DNA of 64,000 bases from Desulfoscipio geothermicus (lineage in GTDB: Bacteria; Bacillota; Desulfotomaculia; Desulfotomaculales; Desulfallaceae), in contig JAENZP010000012.1 of the NCBI GenBank assembly GCA_016841205.1, positions 1-64,000 on the forward strand, read 5' to 3'. The notes beneath the pieces are model-generated. The model worked only from the letters and a program-made list of their open reading frames with translations. It was not told where the DNA came from and searched no databases. The position numbers and the translations under genes are program-made. Shown piece by piece: positions 5,974-45,518 of this stretch. Positions within the stretch are counted from its first letter, which is position 1, and every line of letters starts with the position of its first letter.

Positions 5974-6008
5974 AAAAAAGCCTCTCATCCCAAGGGACGA
6001 GAGGCTTT
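5974..6008 (-). terminator. first T-box terminator
   Basis: On the minus strand AAGCCTCTC with adjoining bases pairs with GAGAGGCTT and is followed by TTTTTT. It sits directly after the first T-box sequence at 6013-6031. Confidence 0.9.
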
Positions 6009-6275
6009 GCCACCGCGTTACCACCCTAGTTGACCTGATTATCAAAGTCAGGTCCACTTGGTAGAGTACAGGAATAATCCGATACCCCCTGCCCTGTAAC
6101 GTGGGAAGCATACGTCCTGGCCTACTTGCCAAATGGTTTCAGCCGGCTTCTCCGGAGGGAACTTCAGTTGGTCATAACCCAGGAACGCTTCCAGTCGGTG
6201 ACGCTCCCTCCCTGAGGGTCTGTTTCCAGCCTACTTTTCTCCATCATGGAATTTATAAATCTTAAGGTTAAACAA

Positions 6276-21423: not shown

Positions 21424-21439
21424 ATAATATTATCGTTTC

Positions 21440-21537
21440 TACCTTGCCTACGCGGGCATTACCCCGATCAGGTTCATGGGTCAGGTACTTACAGTCCTTT
21501 CTCAGCCCATTATAATGAGCTCCCCCAGTTAATATAT
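21440..21537 (-). promoter_or_regulatory. TPP (THI-element) riboswitch
   Basis: The aptamer on the minus strand shows the THI box: GGGGGAGC at the 5' end, GGGCTGAGA, GACCC, GAACCTGATCGGGGTAATG and GCGTAGGCAA. It lies immediately upstream of the terminator at 21393-21423 and thiN. Binding of thiamine diphosphate should favour termination. Confidence 0.96.
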
Positions 21538-37059: not shown

Positions 37060-37242
37060 ATCAAATTTGTCTTTCCCACCGGGCCGTCACCCACCAGTTT
37101 TTTTAAAGACCCACCTTCTCATAGGTGGGTGCTCGACCAATTGCTTCTGCCTTCCGTTCATGACGGCATGACATAGACAACCGGATCATTGCTCCCGAAT
37201 TACATGTGTAGGTTAAAAAAACAAGGGGTCACGCACCAAGTA
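37029..37242 (-). ncRNA. ssrS: probable 6S RNA
   Basis: A noncoding transcript of about 190-210 bases between a TATAAT (37254-37249 on the minus strand) and a strong terminator at 37059-37029. It contains a rod-like fold: TTGTCT pairs with AGACAA and GCCGTCA with TGACGGC around an internal hairpin ACCCACCT / AGGTGGGT, followed by TCTTTAAAAAAACTGG. The size, long hairpin, A-rich stretch and GAGCACCCACC resemble Gram-positive 6S RNA, which binds RNA polymerase. I identify it from memory of the family, not by alignment. The 5' end is inferred from the promoter. Confidence 0.55.
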
Positions 37243-37248
37243 GGTAAT

Positions 37249-37254
37249 ATTATA
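37249..37254 (-). promoter_or_regulatory. -10 element of the probable 6S RNA gene
   Basis: A consensus TATAAT reading on the minus strand. The upstream region is very A/T-rich and the best -35 (TTTATT, 16 bases away) is poor. Confidence 0.5.
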
Positions 37255-37376: not shown

Positions 37377-37734
37377 TAGACTATGACTGTAAGCGAGATT
37401 CTGTTTAAGCAGTCATCTATCTAGGCGAACCTTGCGGCTCACCTCCCCCTCTCGGGGGTGCCCCTACCCGCAGCTCAAAGGCTGCCTATTTGGGTTGCAC
37501 GCTGGCGGAGTTTACCCTTGCACTCACCGGTTACCCGGTGACATAGTTTCTGTGGCACTTTACAGCTACTCAAAACCCGGCGGGTTTCTTTGACCGTCGT
37601 CAGGTCGCCCTGCCCCGGCTTGCGCCGGGCACCATACTACACCAAATGCCTTTTGGGCACCTGGTGTGCGTGTCTCGACTTTCCTCTACCGCCCGGTTTA
37701 TAACCGCACGGCAGCGACTGCCCGTCATAGTCTA
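37377..37734 (-). ncRNA. rnpB: RNase P RNA (bacterial)
   Basis: The catalytic RNA that matures tRNA 5' ends. An 11-base outer helix P1, TAGACTATGAC with GTCATAGTCTA, closes the molecule at 37734 and 37377. Inside are the invariant GAGGAAAGTC near the 5' end, GCCACAGAAA, GTGCAAGGGTAAA and, near the 3' end, AGATAGATGACTGC with AACAGAATCTCGCTTA. These define bacterial RNase P RNA, about 358 bases. A hairpin with GCACGGGC arms at 37322-37362 lies just beyond the 3' end and may terminate transcription. Confidence 0.95.
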
Positions 37735-43846: not shown

Positions 43847-44230
43847 AGATACCTTCCTCTGCGATTATTTAAATCCACATCACCTTTTTTTCTAACTATA
43901 CTTAATATTTACCTTGACTGCAAATAAAACCAAAACCAATTTTACATTTCGTTTATGTTAGGTTGAGTCGTTTGCATTTTTTAACATAATATTGTAAGGT
44001 AATGGCAGGAAACGGATAAAAATTAGCGAAGAGGTTGTCTAAAATGCAATACCTTTTCCCTGCTATTTCCAGTCAGAGACGATACTGAGAATCTACACGA
44101 TAAAAGTAGTGTACCAGAGAATTGAAACTGTGACCGCTGGCAAAGGAGGTAAAAAGTGTATACCCAAGCAAAATATTCAGCTAGATGATTAAGAGTTACT
44201 GGATGAAAAGTATTAAGGGAGCGATAAATA
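43847..44230 (+). other. intergenic leader of the acetolactate decarboxylase fusion gene
   Basis: This 384-base stretch contains the yjbQ promoter on the minus strand and a possible plus-strand promoter TTGAGT (43963-43968), 18-base spacer, TAATAT (43987-43992). That would give a long leader of about 230 bases. Short frames of 14 codons (44044) and 10 codons (GTG after AAAGGAGG near 44157) are present. I cannot assign a known riboswitch. Confidence 0.4.
43895..43923 (-). promoter_or_regulatory. promoter of yjbQ
   Basis: On the minus strand TTGCAG (43923-43918), a 17-base spacer and TATAGT (43900-43895). Confidence 0.6.
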
Positions 44231-45385
44231 ATGCAAAAAAAGTATGTTATATTTATACTGGCAATTTTAATCAGTCTTATTCAGGTTTGTTCTGTACAGG
44301 CTGACGATTCTCTTGTAAAAGTTTACTTAAACAATCAACAAATAAGCTTTAAAGTAGCCCCGATGGTGGAAAATAACCATTGCATGGTGCCTTTACAACC
44401 AGTCATGAAAGCTTTAGAAGCTAAAGTCGATTGGAATCAGCAGACCTGTGACGCAACCGCTTACCTGCCCGGAGTTACCCTGACTGTTACTCCCGGTTTC
44501 ACAATTGCCAGTGTTAACGGAAAGGAAATATCGCTGCCTGTTACTCCTACTATCAAAGATGGGATGGTGGTCGTTCCCCTGCGGGCTATAGCCGACATCT
44601 GTAATATCCGCGTCGGTTGGGACAGCACAAGTTCAACTGTTACCCTCTACTCGAATGAACTAAATTCTGCAAAATTCCCGGACCGGGAGACCGTTCACCA
44701 GGTAGCAATGTTAAGTGTGCTCTTAGAGGGGCAATACGACGGGCAAACATCTTTTGAGGAATTAAAAAAATATGGAGATACCGGTATTGGCACATTTGAA
44801 GGACTTGACGGGGAAATGATCGAACTGGAAGGAAAGTTTTATCAGATTAAAGCAGATGGAATCGCTTACCCGGTTGCTGCTACAATGAAAACACCATTTG
44901 CAAGCGTTACTTATTTTGATGCTGATAAATCTCAGGCAGTAAACGAAAAAATAAATTTCCAACAATTTCAGAAGCGCATAGACAATATGACTGGAAATAA
45001 AAACATTTTTTATGCTATAAAAGTGAACGGCGATTTCAAATATGTTAAAACCAGAAGTGTGCCCGGACAGCAAAAGCCATACCCTCCTCTGGCCGAGGTA
45101 ACTAAAAATCAGCCCACTTTTGAGTTTAATGATGTTAAGGGAACGTTGGTGGGGTTCTGGTGTCCGTCCTATGTAGATGGTCTCAATGTGCCCGGCTATC
45201 ATTTACATTTCTTGAACGCCGATAAAAATGCTGGTGGCCACCTGCTTGATTTTACAATGGAAAGTGGCCAAATAGAAATTGATGCTACTCCTAATTTTTA
45301 TATGTGCTTACCGGACAATGAAGAATTTGGAAAAATCGATATGACTCAAGATAGAAGTCAGGAAACAGAAAAAGTAGAAAAATAA
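44231..45385 (+). CDS. exported acetolactate decarboxylase with copper-amine-oxidase-type stalk domain
   Basis: A 384-residue protein. A signal peptide (1-24; VCSVQA) is followed by a stalk-like copper amine oxidase N-terminal repeat region (about 28-140; MVPLQPVMKALEAKVDW, VVVPLRAIADICNIRVGWD). From about 150 an alpha-acetolactate decarboxylase domain follows: LDGEM (Glu195), KTRSVP (Arg275), GYHLHF (His324, His326) and GGHLLDF (His337). These keep the spacing of the known ALDC zinc ligands Glu, His, His, His and the catalytic Arg. The enzyme converts alpha-acetolactate to acetoin, normally in the cytoplasm. Export and the stalk domain are unusual. GGGAG precedes the ATG. Confidence 0.88.
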   Translation: MQKKYVIFILAILISLIQVCSVQADDSLVKVYLNNQQISFKVAPMVENNHCMVPLQPVMKALEAKVDWNQQTCDATAYLPGVTLTVTPGFTIASVNGKEISLPVTPTIKDGMVVVPLRAIADICNIRVGWDSTSSTVTLYSNELNSAKFPDRETVHQVAMLSVLLEGQYDGQTSFEELKKYGDTGIGTFEGLDGEMIELEGKFYQIKADGIAYPVAATMKTPFASVTYFDADKSQAVNEKINFQQFQKRIDNMTGNKNIFYAIKVNGDFKYVKTRSVPGQQKPYPPLAEVTKNQPTFEFNDVKGTLVGFWCPSYVDGLNVPGYHLHFLNADKNAGGHLLDFTMESGQIEIDATPNFYMCLPDNEEFGKIDMTQDRSQETEKVEK

Positions 45386-45468: not shown

Positions 45469-45518
45469 AGCTTAACACAAAAAGATCCGGAAAACTCCGG
45501 ATCTTTTTGTGTTAAGCT
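45469..45518 (+). terminator. perfect 23-base inverted repeat terminator
   Basis: Both arms (45469-45491 and 45496-45518) are exact complements around a four-base loop. The arms contain A5 and T5 runs, so it can stop transcription from both sides. It overlaps two bases of the menI stop codon. Confidence 0.9.

Follow-up and report, generated by a model that had tools for sequence, protein, structure and literature searches.

A predicted exported acetolactate decarboxylase fused to a PF07833 stalk module in Desulfoscipio geothermicus

Introduction

Acetoin formation is usually drawn as a cytoplasmic overflow route. The acetolactate decarboxylase (ALDC) of Brevibacillus brevis, an aerobic, Gram-positive organism, is what we take to be the secreted enzyme of brewing, presumably without a stalk. 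Here we describe an ALDC encoded in a 64,000-nucleotide stretch of Desulfoscipio geothermicus DNA (the window, which denotes this whole stretch). It resembles the secreted B. brevis enzyme in being, by our prediction, an exported ALDC of a Gram-positive organism, and differs from it in carrying a stalk; we refer to it as stalk-ALDC. The protein has the whole catalytic domain, the active-site residues and the fold of the ALDC family (TIGR01252, PF03306; crystal structures 4bt2 and 5xne). Unlike the ALDCs of these two structures, it adds a stalk module, and no alsS lies beside its gene. It also differs from the sampled ALDCs that resemble Bacillus AlsD by its export signal. Other exported ALDCs of our sample (L002-L006, L023-L025, L029, L032-L035) share with it the same domain and an export segment; unlike the window protein, they have a lipobox or a plain signal and no stalk.

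A comparable arrangement of domains has been reported for a different secreted enzyme, the Cys-less CuZn-superoxide dismutase of Paenibacillus lautus. That report describes a signal peptide, a PF07833 domain and the enzyme, with the N-terminal PF07833 domain making the homodimer and the melting temperature falling from 50.5 to 38.0 °C without it; the enzyme was undetected in the culture medium and its retention in the wall is supposed (PMC10432803). Stalk-ALDC likewise combines a predicted signal peptide, a PF07833 domain and an enzyme domain that is predicted to be secreted. However, the enzyme differs, and the crystallised P. lautus stalk is shorter (about 75 residues) and called a novel dimeric fold, so the role of that stalk may not carry over to stalk-ALDC. 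For the ALDC of an acidophilic archaeon, acetolactate has been derived from branched-chain synthesis, and proton consumption has been proposed as the use of the reaction (PMC4836417).

Searches of open-licence PMC articles found no literature on ALDC with a copper amine oxidase (stalk) domain, none on ALDC with Syntrophomonas and none on "stalk domain-containing protein"; they gave no confirmation that the B. brevis enzyme is secreted. The enzyme is of a known kind; as far as these searches reach, the stalk fusion is a new variant of architecture. Specialists might be surprised by one result alone, a stalk clade common to ALDC fusions and proteins with a PF22309 domain.

Results

The stalk-ALDC gene stands on its own

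The gene and the signals around it were located as follows.

44215..44221, + strand: probable ribosome-binding site AAGGGAG, some 10 nt 5' of the ATG (read from the sequence)
44231..45385, + strand: stalk-ALDC gene, 384 aa, ATG start (open reading frame list of the window and family matches)
45470..45517, no strand assigned: strong bidirectional terminator-like hairpin between the stalk-ALDC gene and the opposite-strand 4HBT gene

Both flanking neighbours are on the opposite strand. Pfam assigned UPF0047 and AIM24 to the upstream neighbours and a 4HBT thioesterase to the downstream one, beyond which an opposite-strand run of reading frames, read by eye, looks like menaquinone genes. The GC content is 0.39-0.41 across the gene and 0.39-0.52 in the surrounding 10 kb (1-kb windows), and the base composition of the region is not informative. 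An Rfam scan 5' of the gene gave no family at its gathering score. An upstream riboswitch was rejected, the two matches obtained being far below their gathering scores and taken as chance.

Upstream of the gene, a 10-codon frame with a GTG start, VYTQAKYSAR, occupies 44156-44188 of the window (+ strand), is preceded by a AAAGGAGG site and stops 42 bp ahead of the stalk-ALDC start; it is possibly a leader peptide, or chance. Elsewhere in the window, a 6S RNA and a class B RNase P RNA adjoin on the - strand (37069-37249 and 37385-37729), and a T-box (5990-6256) and a TPP riboswitch (21428-21536) are present.

A predicted signal peptide and a stalk module precede the decarboxylase domain

The protein is divided into three parts.

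44231..44302, + strand: predicted Sec signal peptide, residues 1-24 (hydrophobicity and lipobox scan; site by eye)
44327..44644, + strand: PF07833 stalk module (copper amine oxidase N-terminal), residues 33-138 (Pfam)
44693..45346, + strand: acetolactate decarboxylase domain PF03306, residues 155-372 (Pfam, TIGR01252 and fold match)

The N-terminus, MQKKYVIFILAILISLIQVCSVQA/DD, has two Lys residues followed by a 12-residue window of mean Kyte-Doolittle value 3.49, and the lipobox scan found no lipobox there. A hydrophobic run with no lipobox resembles the substrates of signal peptidase I; export is predicted on this basis, with cleavage likely at VQA/DD as judged by eye. The PF07833 match, located N-terminal to the enzyme domain, scored 96 bits against a cut-off of 24.2 (1.6e-27), and the module has block-mean pLDDT values of about 65-89 in the AlphaFold model. 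The enzyme domain matched PF03306 at 284.2 bits against a cut-off of 25 (7.3e-85) over positions 1-218 of the 219 in the profile, and the NCBI equivalog TIGR01252 (cut-off 180.65) at 284.9 bits over positions 3-226 of 232. The arrangement originally predicted from the DNA, a signal peptide and a stalk ahead of an ALDC domain, is thus borne out by a signal-like N-terminus and by both family matches.

Were the N-terminal part a mis-called start, the enzyme would be a cytoplasmic ALDC. This is highly improbable, since the entire 384-aa frame, with its signal-like start and its stalk, is conserved in two relatives, L021 (Syntrophomonas sp.; 78% identity to the window protein) and L007 (67%). Three sampled sequences that resemble Bacillus AlsD as judged by eye (L026-L028) have no export segment, a point for the mis-called start that does not extend to the window gene itself.

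The PF07833 stalk is a stock module in this genome, which holds 21 matches. In a scan of six other stalk proteins from it, enzyme-family domains turned up in four (metallo-beta-lactamase fold, amidase, trypsin-like and beta-lactamase-like) and a PsbP-like domain in the fifth; the sixth had no other match.

Active-site residues and predicted fold are those of ALDC

For 4bt2, the structure of B. brevis ALDC, we take the active site to consist of E65, R145, H194, H196, H207 and E253, with the three histidines as zinc ligands, Arg145 as the catalytic residue, and E65 and E253 as the pair of Glu residues. Residues 152-381 of the window protein aligned to the 4bt2 chain ungapped, at a constant offset of 130. 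At this offset, E195, R275, H324, H326 and H337 map to positions 65, 145, 194, 196 and 207, and E383 corresponds to E253 when the offset is extended two residues past the printed alignment.

44813..44815, + strand: Glu195, counterpart of B. brevis Glu65 (4bt2 alignment)
45053..45055, + strand: Arg275, counterpart of the catalytic Arg145 (4bt2 alignment)
45200..45241, + strand: zinc-ligand His stretch H324, H326 and H337, HxH plus 11 (4bt2 alignment)
45377..45379, + strand: Glu383, C-terminal conserved Glu, counterpart of Glu253 (extended offset)

The spacing of the zinc ligands and the catalytic Arg that had initially been given for Bacillus ALDC was found exactly: 129 residues from E195 to H324, 49 from R275 to H324 and 11 from H326 to H337. 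E383, which the initial description does not name, sits 46 residues after H337. All four of the checked offsets to the first His are kept in 12 of the 27 ALDC sequences compared, the window protein counted; the other 15 miss at least one fixed offset, a figure in which length changes and real differences are pooled. Among these 15 is another stalk-ALDC, L031, which stops short of the C-terminal Glu.

The AlphaFold model (m8e901554c189), built from nine sequences, has a mean pLDDT of 73.8 and a pTM of 0.58, with pLDDT below 50 in the C-terminal 25 residues, E383 among them. When this model was used in a fold search, ranks 1-14 were all ALDC or ALDC-like crystal structures, with TM(target) values of 0.79-0.85 (0.84 for 5xne, the B. 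subtilis ALDC, and 0.83 for 4bt2). A putative DNA-binding protein (3hwu) and an E. coli amine oxidase followed after rank 14, with E about 1e-4 and very low TM-scores. Structure prediction against ALDC, which had been proposed as a check of the assignment, therefore supports it at the level of the modelled fold.

Branched-chain synthesis as the proposed source of acetolactate

Stalk-ALDC is the sole PF03306 match in the 3.38-Mb genome. A genome-wide comparison yielded two acetolactate synthase large subunits above the cut-off of the biosynthetic model TIGR00118. Both are encoded together with IlvN and IlvC in a single cluster, which we read as ilv-leu. The AlsS model TIGR02418 is absent for these two synthases among the best 25 of 54 families. 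A third TPP enzyme candidate, L055, scored 286 bits on TIGR02418, where the cut-off is 551.1; its top model is pyruvate oxidase, yet it is below the pyruvate oxidase cut-off too. None of the acetolactate synthase candidates examined in the genome was shown to be AlsS. As initially stated, no alsS or other acetoin gene adjoins the ALDC gene, whose neighbours are the UPF0047, AIM24 and 4HBT genes. An acetoin dehydrogenase E2 was sought as PF00198, which had no match in the genome (the control was found in 10 of 14 genomes). A pair of pyruvate-dehydrogenase-type E1 alpha and beta genes is present (L054, 5928-7917) with no 2-oxoacid dehydrogenase E2 detected in the genome, and the classical acetoin dehydrogenase is therefore incomplete.

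The lack of AlsS among the candidates and of an acetoin dehydrogenase E2 would fit a protein that keeps the fold and the metal site but either uses a different beta-keto or 2-hydroxy-3-oxo acid as substrate or has no activity, as would the NlpC/P60-SLH wall-protein gene that adjoins the ALDC gene in L021 and L065. We regard this as unlikely, because the checked active-site residues are kept, the TIGR01252 score exceeds the equivalog cut-off by 104 bits, and the fold alignment gives 41-42% identity to the Bacillus and B. brevis ALDC structures.

We favour instead, with moderate confidence, a catalytically competent ALDC that leaves the cytoplasm through Sec and stays in the envelope, with a stalk that dimerises, stabilises and retains it and a substrate drawn from branched-chain amino-acid synthesis, the obvious acetolactate source. 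We infer its activity, location, wall retention, substrate source and purpose alike. Acetolactate from the two biosynthetic synthases would leak to the outside, or neighbouring cells would supply it, and the ALDC kept in the cell envelope would convert it there, at the cell surface, by a decarboxylation that yields acetoin and CO2 and consumes a proton. Such a surface enzyme would prevent the accumulation of a reactive beta-keto acid, and of diacetyl. By analogy with the P. lautus superoxide dismutase, the PF07833 stalk may dimerise and stabilise the ALDC and hold it in the wall space. Three observations weigh against this reading: ALDC is sparse and often broken among relatives, the comparison of loci gave the window gene no shared neighbour, and the modelled segment that contains E383 has low pLDDT.

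Predicted export of ALDC is common among relatives

Of the 16 genomes available for the family, only that of the window has ALDC; the class gave 15 of 113 and the phylum sample 22 of 398, again with the genome of the window counted. Seven of the 15 class genomes showed nothing but partial or broken copies. Partial or broken genes were seen at L009-L015, L017-L019, L022, L040-L042 and L044. Such damage in many relatives suggests either that the function has been lost repeatedly or that the assemblies contain errors. With ALDC both sparse and broken in many relatives, its function is dispensable.

Export was scored, and an ALDC tree computed, for 27 near-full-length ALDCs from 26 genomes, four stalk fusions among them; L009-L020, L022, L040-L042 and L044 were left out as fragmentary or interrupted. 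The sample was drawn from the class and phylum of the window and is not random. An ALDC was called exported from a hydrophobic window and a likely start. By this measure an export segment is present at the N-terminus of 19 of the 27, or of 15 of 23 once the stalk fusions are set aside, with L033, at 2.00, scored as exported and L039, at 1.99, as cytosolic. The segment ends in a lipobox in 8 of these 19; lipobox-like matches located away from where the hydrophobic run ends (L021, L031 and L033) are uncounted. One further exported ALDC (L008/L057) has a different N-terminal region, to which Pfam assigned no family. In the part of the tree sampled, ALDCs with predicted export are common, and the original view that an extracellular ALDC is unexpected finds no support there. 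Many related genomes appear to place ALDC outside the cell, which raises the question of what purpose extracellular acetolactate serves.

The fusion to a stalk occurs in four genomes, that of the window and those of L021, L007 and L031. In the ALDC tree, the decarboxylase domains of the four fusions cluster with support of 91/87 and in 92% of bootstrap trees, on a branch that is not starred.

The stalk belongs to a clade shared with PF22309 proteins

The neighbourhood was compared by all-against-all BLAST of the reading frames near the window gene and at 20 other loci, two of which are overlapping parts of one contig. No neighbour is common to the window gene and its relatives in this comparison. 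A conserved neighbourhood was rejected: beyond the ALDC/stalk family, no gene family occurred in more than 5 loci. One BLAST component joined ALDCs and stalk proteins via the window's own stalk, and the stalks were therefore analysed.

The stalk of the window protein was used as a query in 11 genomes. The best match lies near a stalk-less ALDC gene in G088 (3.1 kb), G085 (4.1 kb) and G105 (4.6 kb), and the two best matches in G094 lie 15.5 and 6.5 kb from one. In G032 a stalk match is on the same contig as the ALDC gene, 35 kb away; in G089 and G086 the matches are off the ALDC contigs, which are just 7-8 kb long. The fused stalk of G218 ranks third among the matches to the window's stalk. The probability that a random place would be equally near ALDC is 0.002-0.02 per genome, for a proximity that was found post hoc and in four linked genomes, three of them with ALDCs that are close relatives of one another.

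A tree was computed from 46 stalk domains, with matches shorter than 75 HMM positions and two duplicates left out. The four ALDC-fused stalks and eight unfused stalks form one clade with support of 99/95. Its unfused members are L058, L060, L061 and L062 (3-7 kb from ALDC), L099 (G094, 15.5 kb), L108 and L109 (G032), and L111 (G089). The tree places outside the clade 19 further rows as well as all 15 that represent other D. geothermicus stalk genes. A sensor-like PF22309 domain is present in all eight unfused clade members and in none of ten stalk proteins outside the clade, several of which were scanned as cut stretches. Some unfused members add PdaC, GH3, BAAT or DUF3298 domains; judged by eye, the N-terminus is signal-like in seven of them, and the eighth sequence is cut. 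The fused stalks are not one group inside the clade, L031 being placed among unfused ones at 95/86, a placement that, on these sequences, speaks against a single fusion event and gives no simple agreement with the ALDC tree. These data suggest that the stalk type recruited into the fusions was already a neighbour of ALDC.

The clade may reflect a function common to ALDC fusions and PF22309 proteins. The ALDC could be part of an envelope module with stalk and PF22309 (Cache-like) proteins and sensors, in which it would alter an extracellular acetolactate signal or nutrient read by a Cache-type domain, with the stalk subtype as the shared docking part. The well-supported clade with its PF22309 domains is consistent with such a module, as is the position of four of the eight unfused members, in four genomes, within 3-7 kb of a stalk-less ALDC gene, with a fifth at 15.5 kb; dCache chemoreceptor genes also adjoin ALDC in L065 and L069, although these neighbours may be chance. 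Against it, no sensor was noticed on reading the window's frames from 36 to 54 kb, and the window contig is without a second stalk gene. The pattern was moreover recognised post hoc, in linked genomes of which three of four are not independent, their ALDCs being closely related. Among the remaining three unfused clade members, one lies at a distance of 35 kb from ALDC and the others are on different contigs, and the linked stalk of G105 scores barely above the second, unlinked match (68.3 and 65.8 bits). On balance we consider the envelope module improbable. It is equally doubtful that the stalk subtype marks an unrecognised surface module for the extracellular conversion of acetolactate to acetoin and for sensing, in the walls of anaerobic Gram-positives, with ALDC either fused to this stalk subtype or encoded beside stalk and PF22309 proteins. 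The stalk fusion and the clade held in common with sensor-like proteins give a handle for finding partners.

Genes beside ALDC in individual relatives

At L069 4748-7577, an exported ALDC gene has a dCache chemoreceptor gene 38 bp downstream of it on the same strand, and the two are possibly one transcript; in L065 a similar dCache receptor lies upstream of ALDC. Homologous SH3-NlpC/P60-SLH wall-protein genes lie about 80 bp from ALDC in L021 (5967-9155) and L065 (7898-10697), on its upstream side in one genome and its downstream side in the second. The NlpC/P60-SLH protein was rejected as a general partner of ALDC: homologues above 200 bits occur in 5 of 12 genomes, a figure that includes the genome of the query, with no match in the window's genome, and they adjoin ALDC in 2 genomes only. 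In G094, a second, interrupted ALDC copy (L059, about 2,418,960-2,419,612) lies about 34 kb from the intact one (L058) and has stretches identical to it, and is probably a recent duplication that has since decayed.
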